Source of the DNA: Chryseobacterium camelliae
Lineage (GTDB): Bacteria > Bacteroidota > Bacteroidia > Flavobacteriales > Weeksellaceae
Assembly: GCF_030818575.1 (NCBI RefSeq)
Contig: NZ_JAUTAL010000001.1
Span: 744,001 to 808,000 of the forward strand
Length of the DNA: 64,000 bases
Direction: 5' to 3'
The notes below the pieces were generated by a model. The model made no database searches, was not told the origin of the DNA, and saw only the letters and a program-made list of their open reading frames with translations. Of this stretch, positions 56,016-63,841 are shown piece by piece (the stretch's first letter is position 1; the number at the start of each line of letters is the position of its first letter). A program made the translations under genes and the position numbers.

Positions 56016-56750
56016 TTAAGCTTTAACAGAGCGGATAAAGCGGGTCGCTTTTTCCTTCCATTCGGTTTCATGAAGCAGAATATTAACGAAAGCAGTCCCT
56101 ATGATTCCGCCGTCCGCATATTTGGTCACCCTTTCAAAATCCTGCCTGGACTGGATGCCAAAGCCGATCATTAAAGGATTGGTAAGTGGTAATGAGGCCA
56201 GTTTGGAAAGATAATCTTCGTTGTTGACGGCTGCTTTCTGGCTGCCGGTTGTAGAGGAAGAACTTACGGCATATAAAAAACCTGAACTCAGGGAATCCAG
56301 ATACAGGATTCTTTCCGAAGACGTTTCAGGAGTTACCAGAAATGTGAAATTAAGGCCGTATTTCCTGATCACCGGTCCATAATTCTTTTCAAACTCAACG
56401 GGTGGCAGGTCCGGAATGATGAGTCCGGAAACTCCGCTTTCCGCACAGGCCGCACAAAACCTTTCAAATCCGAAACTCAGTACCGGATTGATATACCCCA
56501 TCAGGATAACCGGAATCGTGATGTCGTCTTTAACGGATTTCAATTGGGAAAAAAGTTTCTCAAGCGTCATGCCGTTATGAAGGGCCCGTTCATGGGCCTG
56601 CTGGATTACCGGTCCGTCCGCTACAGGATCAGAATACGGCATGCCGATTTCCATCATTTCTGCTCCGGAATCCTGGATCAGCTTCATGATATCTGCTGTG
56701 TCTTCGGCTTCAGGAATACCGGCCGTAAAGTATATATTAAGTTTTTTCAT
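56016..56750 (-). CDS. trpA: Tryptophan synthase alpha chain
   Basis: 244 residues. It cleaves indole-3-glycerol phosphate and channels indole to TrpB. The catalytic Glu is in MEIGMPYSDP and the Asp-equivalent region in ILMGYINPVL. The phosphate loop GFGIQSRQD and the C-terminal GGIIGTAFV are present. It lies 22 bases after trpB in the minus-strand trp operon. Confidence 0.96.
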   Translation of the reverse strand: MKKLNIYFTAGIPEAEDTADIMKLIQDSGAEMMEIGMPYSDPVADGPVIQQAHERALHNGMTLEKLFSQLKSVKDDITIPVILMGYINPVLSFGFERFCAACAESGVSGLIIPDLPPVEFEKNYGPVIRKYGLNFTFLVTPETSSERILYLDSLSSGFLYAVSSSSTTGSQKAAVNNEDYLSKLASLPLTNPLMIGFGIQSRQDFERVTKYADGGIIGTAFVNILLHETEWKEKATRFIRSVKA

Positions 56751-56772: not shown

Positions 56773-57984
56773 TTAGAGTTGACCAGAAAGTTCCTGATCC
56801 ATATCCTGGATTTTCTTTAAATAGGTTTCCATATCCTTATCTCCGCGGCCGCTTAAGCAAATGACGATCACCTCATCAGGTTTGAACGTTTTCTGGTCCA
56901 GAACTGCCAGAGCGTGGGCACTTTCCAGCGCCGGAATAATGCCTTCGGAGCGGGTCAGTGCAAAGGCAGACTGTAATGCCTCTTCATCCGTAATGCTGAA
57001 AAATTCAGCCCGTTTTTCGTTGAAAAGGTGCGCATGAAAAGGTCCAATACCCGGGTAATCCAGCCCCGCAGAAATTGAATGCGGCTCAATCACCTGTCCG
57101 TCCGCTGTTTGCATGACCAGGCTTTTGCTTCCATGCAGGACGCCCAGTGTCCCTAAAAAAGTCGTTGCTGCTGTTTTTCCTGAATCTATGCCTAAGCCAC
57201 CCGCTTCTGCGGCAATCAGTTTAACATTCTCTTCCTCCACAAAATGGTAAAAAGTACCCGCAGCATTGCTTCCGCCGCCTACACAGGCTATGACATAGTC
57301 AGGATTTCGGTTTCCGGTCTGCTCGTACAGTTGTTCCCGGATTTCCTGAGAGATAATACTCTGGAACCTTGCCACAAGGTCAGGGAACGGATGGGGACCA
57401 ACGACGCTTCCGATGACGTAATGGGTCGTCACAGGATTACTGATCCAGTCGCGCAGTGCCTCGTTTACCGCATCTTTCAGGGTTTTGGAACCTGATGTGG
57501 ATGGCACTACCTTCGCACCCAGCATATTCATCCGGGCTACATTGGGTGCCTGCCGTTTGATATCCACTTCTCCCATATACACGATGCACTCCAGTCCGAG
57601 CAGGGCGCAGGCGGTCGCAGTCGCCACACCGTGCTGTCCGGCTCCTGTTTCTGCGATAATCCTTTTTTTGCCGAGTCTTTTGGCCAACAAAACCTGTCCA
57701 AGTGCATTATTGATCTTGTGTGCTCCGGTGTGATTCAGATCTTCCCGTTTCAGGTAGATCTGAGTATTGTATTTTTTACTTAAGTTTTTAGCAAAATACA
57801 GCGGTGTGGCACGTCCTACATAATTTTTCAAGAGGTCCTGGTATTCCTGCTGGAAATCTTCAGATTCTATGATGGCAATATAACTGTTCTGCAGTTCCTC
57901 TACATTAGGGTACAGCATTTCGGGGATGAACGCTCCGCCAAATGCACCGTAGTATCCGTTTTCGTCTGGGTTTTTATATTTCAT
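56773..57984 (-). CDS. trpB: Tryptophan synthase beta chain
   Basis: 403 residues. A PLP enzyme that condenses indole with serine. The Schiff-base Lys lies in [12 protein letters not shown], the phosphate-binding loop is [10 protein letters not shown], and ETGAGQHG marks the substrate loop. It starts three bases after the stop of an embedded GNAT gene, so translation is closely coupled. Confidence 0.97.
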
Positions 57985-57987
57985 TTT

Positions 57988-58524
57988 TTATTGATCTTTT
58001 AAATATGTTTTGTTTTCAGGAAGCTGGCTTAGCAATGTTGCTTTTTCATCGGATAAAGTGAAGATCAAGGTATCATCATCTTCAGAATTGATCCAAGCTG
58101 TTCCTTCTTTTTCTTTAATAATCCTGGCCTGATTATATAAAATTCTGATCTGACACTTTTCATAAAAGGGACGTAATTCTGCCTTACAGAAACCAATAAC
58201 TTCAAGATTTCTTTCCTGAATATGATCTTTAAAATAATGGAGGAGTTTCCTGCCATACCCTTTATTCTTTTCTGATGAAACAAAACCTACTACTTCCATA
58301 AAAGCGTGTTCTTTATCATCGATGTCCAGAATTAAATCCATGTTCAATCTCAGTACAGCAAGAATTTTATTACCTTCTACAAGAAAGTGAAATTCCGAAT
58401 TGCTGAATGACGTCCGGAACTCATCTGTTGTAATGCCATTCCACTGGGGTACATTCCAGAGTTCCAGGATATCTTCAATCTGTGTGGCGGTTAATTCATG
58501 TACTTTTTTGGTTTCATATTTCAT
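57988..58524 (-). CDS. GNAT-family acetyltransferase embedded in the trp operon
   Basis: 178 residues. The acetyl-CoA loop is FVSSEKNKGYGRKLLHYFKD (about 91-111), and the C-terminal part contains AELRPFYEKC (about residues 129-138), resembling the F-Y-x-K-x-G segment of GNAT proteins. It lies between trpF and trpB, with a 117-base gap from trpF and only three bases before trpB. No link to tryptophan synthesis is known from sequence. It may be an inserted gene or act on a Trp-related amine. Confidence 0.8.
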   Translation of the reverse strand: MKYETKKVHELTATQIEDILELWNVPQWNGITTDEFRTSFSNSEFHFLVEGNKILAVLRLNMDLILDIDDKEHAFMEVVGFVSSEKNKGYGRKLLHYFKDHIQERNLEVIGFCKAELRPFYEKCQIRILYNQARIIKEKEGTAWINSEDDDTLIFTLSDEKATLLSQLPENKTYLKDQ

Positions 58525-58641: not shown

Positions 58642-59310
58642 TTAGCAGATACCATTTTTAAAAGTTTTTATTTTTTCTATGTCTTTATCACCTGGTGCCC
58701 GTTCGAACTTGGAATTGATATCAATGGCAAAAGGCTTATGGCTGATCATGTCCAAGTCATTTATATTGGCTTCTGAAATCCCGCCGCTTAAAAAATAGGG
58801 AATCGGAATATCCAGGCTGTCAAGGAGACTCCAGTCAAAGCTTTTTCCTGTACCGCCGTATCCTTTGCTGTCCGTATCAAACAAAATATAATCCACATCG
58901 TGCCGAACAGCCCGGATCTGTTCCGAAATCTTTTCTGAATACTGCTCTTTTGAAACAGTATCCTGGAACCCAATTCTAACAGCCTTCATAATTTTAATTT
59001 TATTGCCTGCCTCTTTTCTGAGTTCACTAATGTAATCCTGATCTTCATCTCCGTGCAGCTGGATCATATTTAAACCAGCTTTTTCGGCTATTTCAATAAT
59101 TTTTTCGACTGATTCATTTACAAATACACCGGTCTTTCCAGAATGGTCTATAGATTGAATGTCGGCCAATGTGAGCGAGTTCAGTACAAAGCGTGGAGAA
59201 CATTCATAAAATATGAACCCTATAAAGTCCACATTCATGGCAATAAGCTCATTAATCTGCTCTTTCCTGGTCATGCCGCATACTTTCAGCGCCTCTATTC
59301 CTTTCTTCAT
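58642..59310 (-). CDS. trpF: Phosphoribosylanthranilate isomerase
   Basis: 222 residues of the TIM-barrel PRAI family. KVCGMTRKEQI carries the catalytic Cys, and the catalytic Asp is in ILFDTDSKGYGGTGKSFDW; GGISEANI is the phosphate loop. It starts five bases after trpC ends, so the two genes are tightly linked. Confidence 0.96.
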   Translation of the reverse strand: MKKGIEALKVCGMTRKEQINELIAMNVDFIGFIFYECSPRFVLNSLTLADIQSIDHSGKTGVFVNESVEKIIEIAEKAGLNMIQLHGDEDQDYISELRKEAGNKIKIMKAVRIGFQDTVSKEQYSEKISEQIRAVRHDVDYILFDTDSKGYGGTGKSFDWSLLDSLDIPIPYFLSGGISEANINDLDMISHKPFAIDINSKFERAPGDKDIEKIKTFKNGIC

Positions 59311-59315
59311 ATCCC

Positions 59316-60107
59316 TTATAATAAATGTCCATGGGTAAACTCATTGACAAAACCTGCAAAAGCCTGTCCCGGATCACTGTTTTTCATAAAATATTCGCCC
59401 ATCAGGAAAGCATCAAAGCCTTGCTCTTTAAGGAACAGGAAATCCTTAACAGTATAAATGCCGCTTTCCGCTACAGAGAGTGTCTCTTTAGGAAGCATAT
59501 CTTTAAGCTGTACGGAATGCTGTAAATCAACCTTAAAATCTTTCAGGTTCCTGTTATTAATGCCAACCATATCAATAGCGGAATGATAATGCTGAAGTTC
59601 GGTTTCGGCATGGATTTCTAGCAGTACTTCCAGACCCAGTTCATGGGATAATGCAGTGAATTCAGTTACCTGTTCCGGAGAAAGGCATGCGGCAATCAGC
59701 AGCACGGCATCGGCACCAATGCTTTTAGCCTCATAAAACTGGTATTCATCAATCATGAAATCTTTACGTAAAACCGGAATACGGATGTGGTTTCTTACTT
59801 CCGCAATATCATCCAGGCTTCCGCCGAAAAAATCATGGTCGGTAAGGATAGACACTCCCCCGGCTCCGGTGCGTTCATAGCCTGAAACTACTTCTAAAGG
59901 AGTAGATGTATCGTTAATAATCCCTTTGGATGGTGACTGCCGTTTGAATTCCGCAATAATTCCCGTGCTGTTTTTCAGGGAAGTCTTTAAAGAATTAGTT
60001 TTCCTCCTGAAAAACGGAGAATCTTTAAGCACGGCCAAAGGGATTTTAGATTTAGCTGATAAAACTTCTTCTTTTTTCCTGTGTATGATTTGATCTAATA
60101 TGGTCAT
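59316..60107 (-). CDS. trpC: Indole-3-glycerol phosphate synthase
   Basis: 263 residues. The catalytic residues lie in IAEFKRQSPSKGII (Glu, Lys) and in RKDFMIDEYQ (Lys), with GINNRNLKDF and AESGI later. It is not fused to TrpF, unlike in enterobacteria. It follows trpD after 55 bases. Confidence 0.96.
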   Translation of the reverse strand: MTILDQIIHRKKEEVLSAKSKIPLAVLKDSPFFRRKTNSLKTSLKNSTGIIAEFKRQSPSKGIINDTSTPLEVVSGYERTGAGGVSILTDHDFFGGSLDDIAEVRNHIRIPVLRKDFMIDEYQFYEAKSIGADAVLLIAACLSPEQVTEFTALSHELGLEVLLEIHAETELQHYHSAIDMVGINNRNLKDFKVDLQHSVQLKDMLPKETLSVAESGIYTVKDFLFLKEQGFDAFLMGEYFMKNSDPGQAFAGFVNEFTHGHLL

Positions 60108-60162: not shown

Positions 60163-61149
60163 CTATTGAAGCAGCAATGTTAGGCTTTGCAGGGCTTTGC
60201 CGTTTTTCAGGCTTTCTTCAGCCATCAGGAGGCAATCTTTATAACTTCCGTACTGGTGAGTATGGTAAAGTGCTACGGCAGCATTCGCCAGCACCACGGA
60301 ATTCTGCTGTTCCGTGCCTTTTCCTTCCAGGATCTTCCTGAATAAAGCCGCCGTTTCTCCAATGGTTGCTCCGGCCTGGATGCTTTCCGGACTTACGGCA
60401 TGGAAGCCGAGGTCCTGAGCGGAATACATTTCCTCACCGTATTTTGTGATGATCTTGGTATCCTGTGTAAGGCTGATTTCGTCATATCCATCCATGCCAT
60501 GAACCAGGACAAATTCCCTGCTGTCTTTCTGCAGCAGGTATTGGTAAATCCGTGCAATTTCAAGGTTATAGACTCCGATCACAGAATATTTTGGTTTTGC
60601 AGGATTGACTAACGGTCCTAAAAGATTGAAGAATGTACGCAGTCCAAGGGCTTTCCTCAAGGCGCCCACGGACTTCAGGGCAGGATGGAAATAGGGGGCA
60701 TGCAGGAAGCAGATGTTGGCTTTGAAAAGGTCTTCGTTGAGGTCTTCTGAGGTTTTTTTAAACTGGTAGCCCAGCTCTTCCAGCACATTGGAAGCACCCG
60801 TAGCCGTTGAAGCGCCGTAATTTCCATGCTTGGCCACCTTCTGTCCGGTCCCCGCAACAACAAAGCTGGCCAGGGTAGAGATATTGATGGTGTCTTTTCC
60901 GTCACCGCCCGTTCCTACGATATCCAGCAAGCCGTCTTCTTCCAGCGTTACCGGGACCGCCATCTGTAAAAGTGCTTCCCGGAAGCCTTCCAGTTCCTGC
61001 AGGGTGATATTTCTAAGCAGGAAGACACTGATGAAAGCTGTGATTTCAGCATCATTGAATTTATTGTGGGCAATTTCAAGCATGATCGCTTTCGCCTCAG
61101 ATTTGGAGAGTGTATAATGATTGAACAGGTATTGCAGTATTTCTTTCAT
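60163..61149 (-). CDS. trpD: Anthranilate phosphoribosyltransferase
   Basis: 328 residues. The PRPP site GTGGDGKDTINISTLASF and KHGNYGASTATGAS are typical of TrpD. It transfers the phosphoribosyl group onto anthranilate. Here it is separate from TrpG. Gaps of 33 bases to trpG and 55 to trpC. Confidence 0.96.
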   Translation of the reverse strand: MKEILQYLFNHYTLSKSEAKAIMLEIAHNKFNDAEITAFISVFLLRNITLQELEGFREALLQMAVPVTLEEDGLLDIVGTGGDGKDTINISTLASFVVAGTGQKVAKHGNYGASTATGASNVLEELGYQFKKTSEDLNEDLFKANICFLHAPYFHPALKSVGALRKALGLRTFFNLLGPLVNPAKPKYSVIGVYNLEIARIYQYLLQKDSREFVLVHGMDGYDEISLTQDTKIITKYGEEMYSAQDLGFHAVSPESIQAGATIGETAALFRKILEGKGTEQQNSVVLANAAVALYHTHQYGSYKDCLLMAEESLKNGKALQSLTLLLQ

Positions 61150-61182: not shown

Positions 61183-61797
61183 TTAATGCAGAAGAAAGTT
61201 TCGGATGATGGTTTCTCCGTCCGGCGTCAGGATGCTTTCAGGATGGAACTGGACGCCATGCACATCATATTGTCTATGTTGCAGGGCCATGATCATGCCA
61301 TCATTATCCACGGCGGTAATCTCCAGTTCTTCTGGAAAACCTTCCGTGTCAACAGCCCAGCTGTGGTATCTTCCGACTTCCATTCCGGAACTAAGGTTCC
61401 GGAAAAGTTTGGTTTCTTCCCTGACCAGATGGGCCGGGGTAGAAACACCATGGAAGATCTCAGACAGGTTGATCAGAGTTCCGCCAAATGCTTCTGCAAT
61501 GGCTTGCTGACCCAGGCAAACGCCCAGGATGCTTTTGCTGGGAGCATATTCCCGGATCAGGTCCAGCAGGATGCCTGCTTCTTCCGGAATACCGGGACCA
61601 GGTGAAAGAATGATTTTATCATATTGTGCAATCTCTTCCAGAGAAATTTCATCGTTCCTTACAACATCCACTTTTCTGTTTAAGATTCTCTCTATGATCT
61701 GCACAAGATTATAGGTAAAACTGTCATAGTTATCAAAAACCAGGATTTTTGTTTCCTGATTTGTATCGGATGTATTTATAGGTAGGGTAGTGTTCAT
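61183..61797 (-). CDS. trpG: Anthranilate synthase glutamine amidotransferase component
   Basis: 204 residues. Class I amidotransferase triad: Cys in GVCLGQQAIAE, His and Glu in VQFHPES. It supplies ammonia to TrpE. It lies 63 bases after the trpE stop. The first 15 residues (MNTTLPINTSDTNQE) are an extension that may not be needed, since the family usually starts near ILVFDNYDSF. Confidence 0.94.
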   Translation of the reverse strand: MNTTLPINTSDTNQETKILVFDNYDSFTYNLVQIIERILNRKVDVVRNDEISLEEIAQYDKIILSPGPGIPEEAGILLDLIREYAPSKSILGVCLGQQAIAEAFGGTLINLSEIFHGVSTPAHLVREETKLFRNLSSGMEVGRYHSWAVDTEGFPEELEITAVDNDGMIMALQHRQYDVHGVQFHPESILTPDGETIIRNFLLH

Positions 61798-61860: not shown

Positions 61861-63282
61861 TTAATCTACTATTTTCTCTGCTTTTTCCACTGCTTTCTTC
61901 AGGGCATTCAGTTTGTTATTGACTTCCTGAAGTTCGTTTTCAGGCACCGAGTGGGCTACAAGGCCTGCTCCTGCCTGATAATACAGCGTATTGTTCTTAC
62001 TCAGGAACGTCCTGATCATAATGGCCTGGTTGCAGGTACCGTTCAGGCCGATCATCCCGATGCAGCCCCCATAGTATCCCCTGGAATCTTTTTCATACGC
62101 ATCAATCAGCTGAAGCGCTTTATGCTTCGGAGCCCCGCTTAAAGTACCCTGAGGGAAAGTGGCAGATACCATCTCAAAAGGCTGAATGCCCTCCGGAAGA
62201 TCAGCAGTGACTTCGCTTACCATGTGAATAACGTGTGAAAACAGCTGGATTTCTTTCAGTTTCGTAACGGTTACATTTTTACCCAGCTTTCCGAGGTCAT
62301 TTCTGGCCAGGTCCACCAGCATGGTATGCTCTGCATTTTCTTTTGGATCCTTTTTTAAGGTTTCAATAGCCTTCAGGTCAGTTTCCAGATGTCCTGTTCT
62401 TTTGAATGTCCCGGCAATCGGATGGATCACTGCCTGGTTATTTTTAATAATTAGCTGGCTTTCCGGACTGGAACCAAACAGCCTGTAATTGCCATAGTCG
62501 AAGAAAAAGAGGTAAGGGGAAGGGTTGATATTCCGCAAAGCGCGGTATACATTGAATTCGTCACCGGTAAACTTCTGCTGAAACCTCCTGCTGAGTACCA
62601 GCTGGAATACATCACCTCTCATACAATGCTTCTGGGCTGTTTTTACCAGCGCTATATATTCTTCATCTGTAAGGTTGGAAGTTTCGGAACCGGCTTTTCC
62701 GAAAGGATAGATCACAGGATTCCTGTTTTTGATGAGGCTTTCCAGGAGATAAAGTTCGGAGTGGACACCTTCGATGCGGTTTTCAATAAAATGCATTTCA
62801 TCATTATAATGATTAATAGCAATGACATACTGATAAAGGCGATACCTGAGCAGTGGAATCTCCACCTCCGGGCTCTGCGCCTTAAAAGTGATTTTTTCAA
62901 AGAGCTGTACGGCATCAAAACTGGTATACCCGAATACGCTTTGGGCAGTTTCCTCTACCGCGTCCTTTGCTTTTTCACATTCAAAGATCTGACAGAAGTT
63001 GCTGAATATATCCGTAACGGAATGACCTTCCAGCGACTGTTTTACCGGTTCTTCCAGAGGAAGTTTCACTTCGTATTCTTTCAGTGACCTGATCTCAATT
63101 CCGGCGATGGCATTGATGCCGATATACGAGAAGTTGTGCTCTGCATTCCTTGAATCCGAACTTTCCAGCAGTACGGTATCCCTGAAATGATCCCTTACCT
63201 GAAGGTAAATGTTCATGGGAGTCTGGAGGTCTCCGAGTGTTTTTTTTGAAACGGTTTTTATTTTGATTTTTTTGTGGAACAT
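61861..63282 (-). CDS. trpE: Anthranilate synthase component I
   Basis: 473 residues. The chorismate-binding domain has GTLSGAPKHKALQLI and YYGGCIGMIGLNG. The N-terminal VLLESSDS matches the LLES motif that binds tryptophan for feedback inhibition. It is the first enzyme of the operon and lies downstream of a leader peptide and hairpin. Confidence 0.96.
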   Translation of the reverse strand: MFHKKIKIKTVSKKTLGDLQTPMNIYLQVRDHFRDTVLLESSDSRNAEHNFSYIGINAIAGIEIRSLKEYEVKLPLEEPVKQSLEGHSVTDIFSNFCQIFECEKAKDAVEETAQSVFGYTSFDAVQLFEKITFKAQSPEVEIPLLRYRLYQYVIAINHYNDEMHFIENRIEGVHSELYLLESLIKNRNPVIYPFGKAGSETSNLTDEEYIALVKTAQKHCMRGDVFQLVLSRRFQQKFTGDEFNVYRALRNINPSPYLFFFDYGNYRLFGSSPESQLIIKNNQAVIHPIAGTFKRTGHLETDLKAIETLKKDPKENAEHTMLVDLARNDLGKLGKNVTVTKLKEIQLFSHVIHMVSEVTADLPEGIQPFEMVSATFPQGTLSGAPKHKALQLIDAYEKDSRGYYGGCIGMIGLNGTCNQAIMIRTFLSKNNTLYYQAGAGLVAHSVPENELQEVNNKLNALKKAVEKAEKIVD

Positions 63283-63302: not shown

Positions 63303-63342
63303 AAATAAAAAAAAGACTTCAACGGTATCCGTCAAAGTCTTT
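63303..63342 (-). terminator. trp attenuator hairpin
   Basis: On the minus strand, AAAGACTTTGACGG pairs with CCGTTGAAGTCTTT (14 bp with two wobbles) around ATA, followed by eight U. It lies 28 bases after the leader stop codon and 21 bases before the trpE ATG, so it is placed to cut transcription before trpE. Confidence 0.88.
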
Positions 63343-63369
63343 ATATGCTTATATTATTTTTGTCTTGCG

Positions 63370-63447
63370 TTAACAACATAACAATACTTCCAGACCCGAC
63401 GAAGAGTTTGAAAGCCACCACCAGTTATTGTTGCTGATCTGATTCAT
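63370..63447 (-). CDS. trpL: trp operon leader peptide, 25 residues with three tandem Trp codons
   Basis: The ATG at 63445-63447 opens MNQISNNNWWWLSNSSSG, with TGG-TGG-TGG at 63415-63423 (Trp9-Trp11), and the frame ends LEVLLCC at TAA 63370-63372. Three consecutive Trp codons in 25 and a terminator hairpin right after are the features of a ribosome-stalling attenuator. By eye AACAATA upstream of the Trp codons can pair with TATTGTT near the stop, and TTCGTCGGG after the Trp codons can pair with TTTGACGGA in the left terminator arm. These would be the anti-antiterminator and antiterminator. The ORF is too short for standard tracks. Confidence 0.85.
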   Translation of the reverse strand: MNQISNNNWWWLSNSSSGLEVLLCC

Positions 63448-63451
63448 GGGA

Positions 63452-63459
63452 CAAATGTA
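63452..63459 (-). promoter_or_regulatory. -7 box (TACATTTG) four bases before the leader ATG
   Basis: Exact TAnnTTTG match on the minus strand ending at 63452, with the leader ATG beginning at 63447. If this is the real promoter the leader transcript is leaderless or nearly so. No clear -33 TTG is seen upstream. Confidence 0.5.
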
Positions 63460-63613: not shown

Positions 63614-63841
63614 ATGAAAAAAGTATTAGCCGCCGCATTTATAGCAAGCTTATTCATGATCAACTGCTCTAAGAAAACCGATCATTCCCTACAGGACAGC
63701 AACACGATGCTGGAAGAACCTGAAGCGCCAACAGTAACCGATTCTACTGCTAAAAAGGCAGATACACCGGCTGCCACAGCTACAGCACCTGCATCAACCG
63801 CTACTGCTGCTGCCAAAAAAGATTCTACAGCAGCAAAATAA
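63614..63841 (+). CDS. Small lipoprotein, Ala/Thr-rich
   Basis: 75 residues. A lipobox FMINC followed by SKK (Cys about residue 18) marks it as an exported lipoprotein. The mature part is a low-complexity Ala/Thr/Lys/Pro chain likely to be disordered and to span envelope space. It overlaps the next gene by one base (TAATG), so the two are translated together. No function can be assigned. Confidence 0.75.
   Translation: MKKVLAAAFIASLFMINCSKKTDHSLQDSNTMLEEPEAPTVTDSTAKKADTPAATATAPASTATAAAKKDSTAAK

Follow-up and report, generated by a model that had tools for sequence, protein, structure and literature searches.

Does the stretch that separates a short minus-strand reading frame from trpE in Chryseobacterium camelliae regulate the tryptophan genes through translation of a leader peptide, and how would ribosomes begin on that peptide in a bacterium with weak Shine-Dalgarno use? 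An earlier note on this DNA had seen here a complete trp attenuator following the ribosome-stalling logic of proteobacterial trp operons. The E. coli trp attenuator comprises a short open reading frame (ORF) with tandem Trp codons, the 1:2 / 2:3 / 3:4 pairing logic and an intrinsic terminator before trpE. In the window, by which we mean the whole stretch of 64,000 nucleotides analysed, the corresponding parts were located as follows.

63452 to 63459, minus strand: promoter −7 element TACATTTG, matching the Bacteroidota consensus TAnnTTTG and ending 4 nt before the leader ATG
63370 to 63447, minus strand: leader ORF of 25 codons plus TAA, MNQISNNNWWWLSNSSSGLEVLLCC, read from 63447 to 63370
63415 to 63423, minus strand: three Trp codons TGGTGGTGG, codons 9-11 of the leader
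63387 to 63414, minus strand: 1:2 hairpin CUUUCAAACUCUUCGUCGGGUCUGGAAG, directly 3' of the Trp codons, −7.8 kcal/mol
63392 to 63403, minus strand: segment 2, TTCGTCGGGTCT, which pairs with segment 3 at −13.5 kcal/mol
63328 to 63340, minus strand: segment 3, AGACTTTGACGGA, the terminator 5' arm and partner of segment 2
63307 to 63342, minus strand: terminator, consisting of a hairpin at 63342-63312 (14 bp, 3-nt loop, −15.8 kcal/mol) that overlaps U8 at 63314-63307

The 25-codon peptide with three consecutive Trp codons described in the earlier note was recovered at 63447..63370, and its 14-bp hairpin and U8 were found at 63342..63312 and 63314..63307, so that tandem Trp codons lie in a short ORF ahead of the trp genes, with an intrinsic terminator between that ORF and trpE. 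The gap from the stop codon to the hairpin is short, as had been claimed, although we counted 27 rather than 28 nucleotides. A suggested pairing of TTCGTCGGG with TTTGACGGA proved to be real complementarity, supported by relatives: segment 2, located in the loop and 3' arm of the 1:2 hairpin, forms 12 pairs with one bulge (−13.5 kcal/mol) with the terminator 5' arm, and this pairing ranks 37/1000 against shuffles of the single sequence. Given that the partner of segment 2 is the terminator 5' arm, antiterminator and terminator are mutually exclusive. The window thus resembles the E. coli trp attenuator in its Trp-codon ORF, its 1:2 / 2:3 / 3:4 logic and its terminator before trpE, but differs in having its whole 1:2 hairpin 3' of the Trp codons, and no Shine-Dalgarno-dependent start is expected.

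The genes after the leader run in the order trpEGDCF-x-BA, all on the minus strand, with x being a 178-aa ORF. The names of TrpE and TrpF are best matches below model cut-offs, while the other five trp genes reach a cut-off.

61861 to 63282, minus strand: trpE, anthranilate synthase component I, 473 aa; best match TIGR00564, 400 bits, under the model cut-off of 517.7
61183 to 61797, minus strand: trpG; TIGR00566 over cut-off
60163 to 61149, minus strand: trpD; TIGR01245 over cut-off
59316 to 60107, minus strand: trpC; NF001377 over cut-off
58642 to 59310, minus strand: trpF; best match NF002298, 152 bits, under its cut-off of 215
57988 to 58524, minus strand: 178-aa ORF between trpF and trpB; no NCBIfam match at 1e-10
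56773 to 57984, minus strand: trpB; TIGR00263 over cut-off
56016 to 56750, minus strand: trpA; TIGR00262 over cut-off

Two small proteins are encoded on the plus strand, divergent from the leader (63614-63841 and 63841 to the window end), and both have lipoprotein-like N-termini by eye (MKKVLAAAFIASLFMINC... and MKKLFLTGCIGLLIASC...).

Folding of the RNA through U8 with no ribosome gave three hairpins: the one after the three Trp codons (WWW), one in the middle, and the terminator. When the RNA reached only through segment 3, the antiterminator formed both when a ribosome occupied the first Trp codon and when none was present. By contrast, the terminator was still in the lowest-energy fold of all three stalled states when the whole RNA was folded. 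Because equilibrium folds keep the terminator in the stalled states, the choice must be kinetic and would be made during synthesis, which is when a textbook attenuator chooses its fold. We reasoned that transcription of the trp operon is very probably controlled here by ribosome-mediated attenuation, with the leader probably read from a leaderless message. RNA polymerase would start at, or about one base from, the leader AUG, and ribosomes would load on the leaderless message. Under scarcity of charged tRNA-Trp, a ribosome would stall at WWW and mask the 5' arm of the next hairpin, an arm that a ribosome positioned there would cover by its footprint size; segment 2 would then pair with segment 3 once the latter is made, and transcription would continue into trpE. 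With ample Trp, the ribosome would pass WWW and segment 2 would be covered, or refolded in the 1:2 hairpin behind the ribosome, with the terminator hairpin and U8 forming and transcription stopping. Read-through is predicted to depend on both charged tRNA-Trp and translation of the Trp codons. In this scheme the ORF, the overlapping hairpins, their conservation and the cognate pairing in different genera come from sequence and comparison, and the start site, translation, stalling and Trp response are inferred.

That the terminator dominates the full-length folds could also be read as the mark of a plain or constitutive partial terminator, accompanied by a chance short ORF and sensing nothing. 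We therefore turn to the comparative evidence on the ORF. The 110 Chryseobacterium upstream regions surveyed (the window plus two overlapping sets of 80 and 29 loci) yielded 93 matches and 88 distinct leaders, the 17 non-matches being minus-strand loci scanned unreversed, whose genomes all match the leader model strongly; WWW was present in 88/88 of the distinct leaders. A second set comprised 60 regions upstream of trpE-like genes from the window's family and order, and in 46/60 of these the 380 nt ahead of the gene held a short forward ORF with WWW. A leader was found at 54 of the 61 loci when the window was included. Among the seven loci missed by the leader search, L169 carries a WCW leader matched by the covariance model R1 (see below). 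No leader was present at three g36 loci, nor ahead of three additional (second) TrpE-like genes in the window's genus. For the class, 63 of 197 genomes gave a TrpE match at E 1e-90 or better, and 56 of the 64 listed places were taken; those set aside were the window, one congener, one place at a contig end, two fetched earlier and three more. Here, 380 nt of upstream sequence contained a short forward ORF with WWW at 29/56 loci and with WW at 41/56, and 19 of the 25 families in the set had at least one WW leader. By contrast, the opposite strand had no WWW ORF at any family/order or class locus and no WW ORF in the class set, and dinucleotide shuffles gave means of 0.0 (family/order) and 0.0 (class) WWW ORFs, and 0.6 WW ORFs in the class. 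The conserved short ORF with tandem TGG codons that the earlier note proposed to look for is present in relatives.

The stems were compared in a genus alignment of 45 leaders, namely the window and 44 of the 85 other distinct leaders. The terminator was paired in 95.7% of cells, with 21 doubly changed cells and 0/500 shuffles as good. The hairpin after WWW was paired in 90.4%, a weak signal in that 23/500 shuffles reach that percentage, and the antiterminator was nearly invariant, with 97.9% of cells paired and no covariation in the 45 leaders. The compensatory changes anticipated for the stems were accordingly seen in the terminator but not, within the genus, in the antiterminator. A further pairing advanced in the earlier note, AACAATA with TATTGTT, was given up as the 1:2 pairing: its letters exist, but 77.8% of cells were paired, 389/500 shuffles were equal or better by this measure, the outer pair was kept in 2/45 leaders and no covariation appeared among the 45. 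The competing hairpin adjoins the Trp codons instead, and AACAATA:TATTGTT may act in a weaker role.

Across genera, cognate combinations of segments were scored against swapped ones. In 26 genus representatives, cognate duplexes of segment 2 with the terminator arm had a mean of −10.5 kcal/mol versus −8.1 kcal/mol when swapped, with 0/20000 permutations as good; for the 15 type-A genera, the window's type, the values were −13.5 and −10.2 kcal/mol (0/20000). The arms of the hairpin after WWW were likewise better cognate than swapped in the 26 representatives and in each group (0/20000 throughout), although the hairpins taken singly seldom beat shuffles (rank 2 to 261 of 300). A single antiterminator geometry for all was rejected, as it failed in the 11 remaining representatives (13276/20000 permutations as good), which are four genera of the window's family and seven representatives from other families. 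In these 11, pairing of segment 2 to the terminator loop plus 3' arm was supported (3/20000), with single loci ranking 15 to 743 of 1000, and type-A genera leaned to this pairing too (839/20000). The loop and 3' arm idea came first by eye and the groups were split after scores had been seen, making this division partly circular, while the test on 26 representatives is free of the split. L154 failed the type-A test (434/1000), and a different hairpin had been taken as its terminator by the script. The antiterminator differs between genera, with cognate pairing retained. Returning to a plain terminator, it is at odds with this cognate pairing and with WWW ORFs upstream of trpE in 46/60 and 29/56 loci against none on the opposite strand or in shuffles; moreover, it would have no upstream transcript to end, because the upstream neighbour genes run away from the leader. 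We regard it as very improbable.

Leaders of the genus strongly conserve the stretch that follows WWW, as might be so in a ligand- or protein-binding RNA (a riboswitch or a TRAP-like target) to which the short ORF was incidental. Other genera, however, carry a different sequence there: the segment sequences differ while their pairing is retained, and WWW and the pairing logic stay constant. Such an RNA is the least probable of the readings weighed here, and attenuation by a translating ribosome remains the one we adopt.

Two loci of family f2, L187 (88-209 and 243-357, minus) and L189 (99-215 and 235-358, plus), have two successive WWW leaders, each matching R1, and two leaders before one trpE are predicted to be tandem attenuators. 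In a g48 genome, a 5S rRNA match (L171, 334-441, minus strand, 79.6 bits) lies shortly upstream of the trp leader.

The remaining question is where the message begins. The spacing from promoter element to ATG was 4 nt in 87/88 distinct Chryseobacterium leaders and 5 nt in 1/88. For 241 of 434 candidate promoters in Flavobacterium johnsoniae, the distance from the TAnnTTTG element to the start site is 4 or 5 nt (PMC6847099). Because the 4-nt spacing here coincides with that element-to-start distance, the transcript is predicted to have the A or the U of the leader AUG as its first nucleotide, and is probably a leaderless mRNA. A leaderless start would probably also answer the concern raised in the earlier note about weak Shine-Dalgarno use. 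A trp leader peptide on a leaderless transcript upstream of trpE has been described for Sinorhizobium meliloti trpL / rnTrpL (PMC7298713) and for Streptomyces lividans TrpL1 (PMC8079986); in these other phyla the start is mapped, whereas the window's start is predicted from promoter spacing.

The spacing was less uniform further afield. In a wider set of 46 leaders from the window's family and 8 from other families of the order, 34/54 had 4-5 nt spacing, all in the window's family, and only 7/46 class-level candidate leaders had it; tight promoter spacing is a trait of the window's family more than of the class. These counts, with 12/46 leaders of the window's own family lacking the 4-5 nt spacing, speak for an attenuator on a leadered mRNA, in which transcription comes from a more distant upstream promoter and the TAnnTTTG next to the ATG does not set the relevant start. 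Leaderless messages make up only 5.5% of mRNAs in Flavobacterium psychrophilum (PMC9723704), and 87% of probable-promoter leaders in F. johnsoniae exceed 10 nt (PMC6847099).

Two other leaders in the same genome bear on this point. Upstream of the hisG match (L261, G000:C1:1433930-1434469), a 15-codon ORF MKPNFLTVHHHHHLC with five His codons lies 18 nt after TACCTTTG; a hairpin and T run, read by eye, come next, and the whole is likely to be a his attenuator. Upstream of the aspartokinase match (L264, G000:C1:2787274-2788659, an 842-aa frame), a 34-codon ORF MKFSRNIADISAPDFSIPEVSSVSIIATTTITTP lies 11 nt after TAGATTTG and ends ...SSVSIIATTTITTP, a likely Thr/Ile attenuator. Both are leadered (18 and 11 nt), unlike the trp leader. 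At pheA, which directly follows another gene, and at ilvD, which has no non-coding leader region ahead of it, no leader was expected. Given that exactly 4 nt are kept in 87/88 distinct Chryseobacterium leaders, however, we consider a leadered trp message unlikely, though less so than the two alternatives above, and favour the leaderless start.

We then ask whether the element is of a known family. At the gathering cut-off, Rfam gave no match in the window, while a permissive search scored it against RF01692 (Bacteroid-trp) at 20.9 bits (E 5.1, cut-off 49), with the window aligned in register to model positions 1-131. The Rfam description of RF01692 is Bacteroidete tryptophan peptide leader RNA, the same role as proposed for the window element, and its model as printed stops in the terminator 5' arm. 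At cut-off, RF01692 detected 14 of 79 leader-bearing loci (4/19, 3/20, 5/20 and 2/20 by batch) and none of the eight Chryseobacterium among them. Under strict filters, R1, the covariance model built on the 45 Chryseobacterium leaders, matched upstream of trpE with at least 133 bits in 60/60 same-genus genomes and gave weaker matches in 8/39 non-genus genomes. It recovered 14/14 RF01692-positive loci at E < 0.001, with scores from 72.4 bits down to 30.1 bits (E 0.00028) for L175. Some opposite-strand matches are as strong as this last one (E 0.00008 to 0.001, for example L146, L156 and the window), and R1 missed the WWW leader of L206. A new RNA family had been entertained and was dropped, as the permissive search and relatives pointed to RF01692. 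The window element appears to be a divergent relative of RF01692, under the formal cut-off and linked to it by intermediates.

The attenuator reading itself was supported by the R1 matches in 60/60 same-genus genomes and by cognate antiterminator pairing across genera. Its presentation as a device of proteobacteria that is new to this group was not, because RF01692 was already listed in a 2010 screen and attenuation was proposed for F. psychrophilum in 2021 (PMC9723704). Bacteroid-trp appears in a table of Weinberg et al. 2010 (PMC2864571), in whose main text, as far as available, the terms 'tryptophan', 'leader peptide' and 'attenuation' are absent. F. psychrophilum belongs to the window's class and shares short peptides ahead of amino-acid operons; the 2021 paper proposed leader-peptide attenuation of such operons and described conserved 5' elements at hisG and pheA, and 'tryptophan' and 'trpE' are absent from the available part of its main text (PMC9723704). 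Among the matches listed in a search of open-licence full-text literature, no account of this Chryseobacterium leader appeared.

Taken together, the trp attenuator here is real, well conserved and of a known kind, in a lineage missed by the current Rfam model, with a probable leaderless start and a predicted response to Trp. RF01692, catalogued but little described, is thereby extended to Chryseobacterium and relatives that the model misses. For the window's family, we lean towards a trp attenuator on a leaderless message with promoter-AUG spacing held at 4-5 nt, which would amount to Shine-Dalgarno-free translation sensing where leaderless mRNAs are rare, together with an antiterminator that, within the class, has shifted between two topologies (terminator 5' arm versus loop plus 3' arm) while the Trp codons and the next hairpin stayed fixed. 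With its AUG start predicted and translation of its peptide readable via termination, the leader is a case in which leaderless translation in Bacteroidota can be put to the test.
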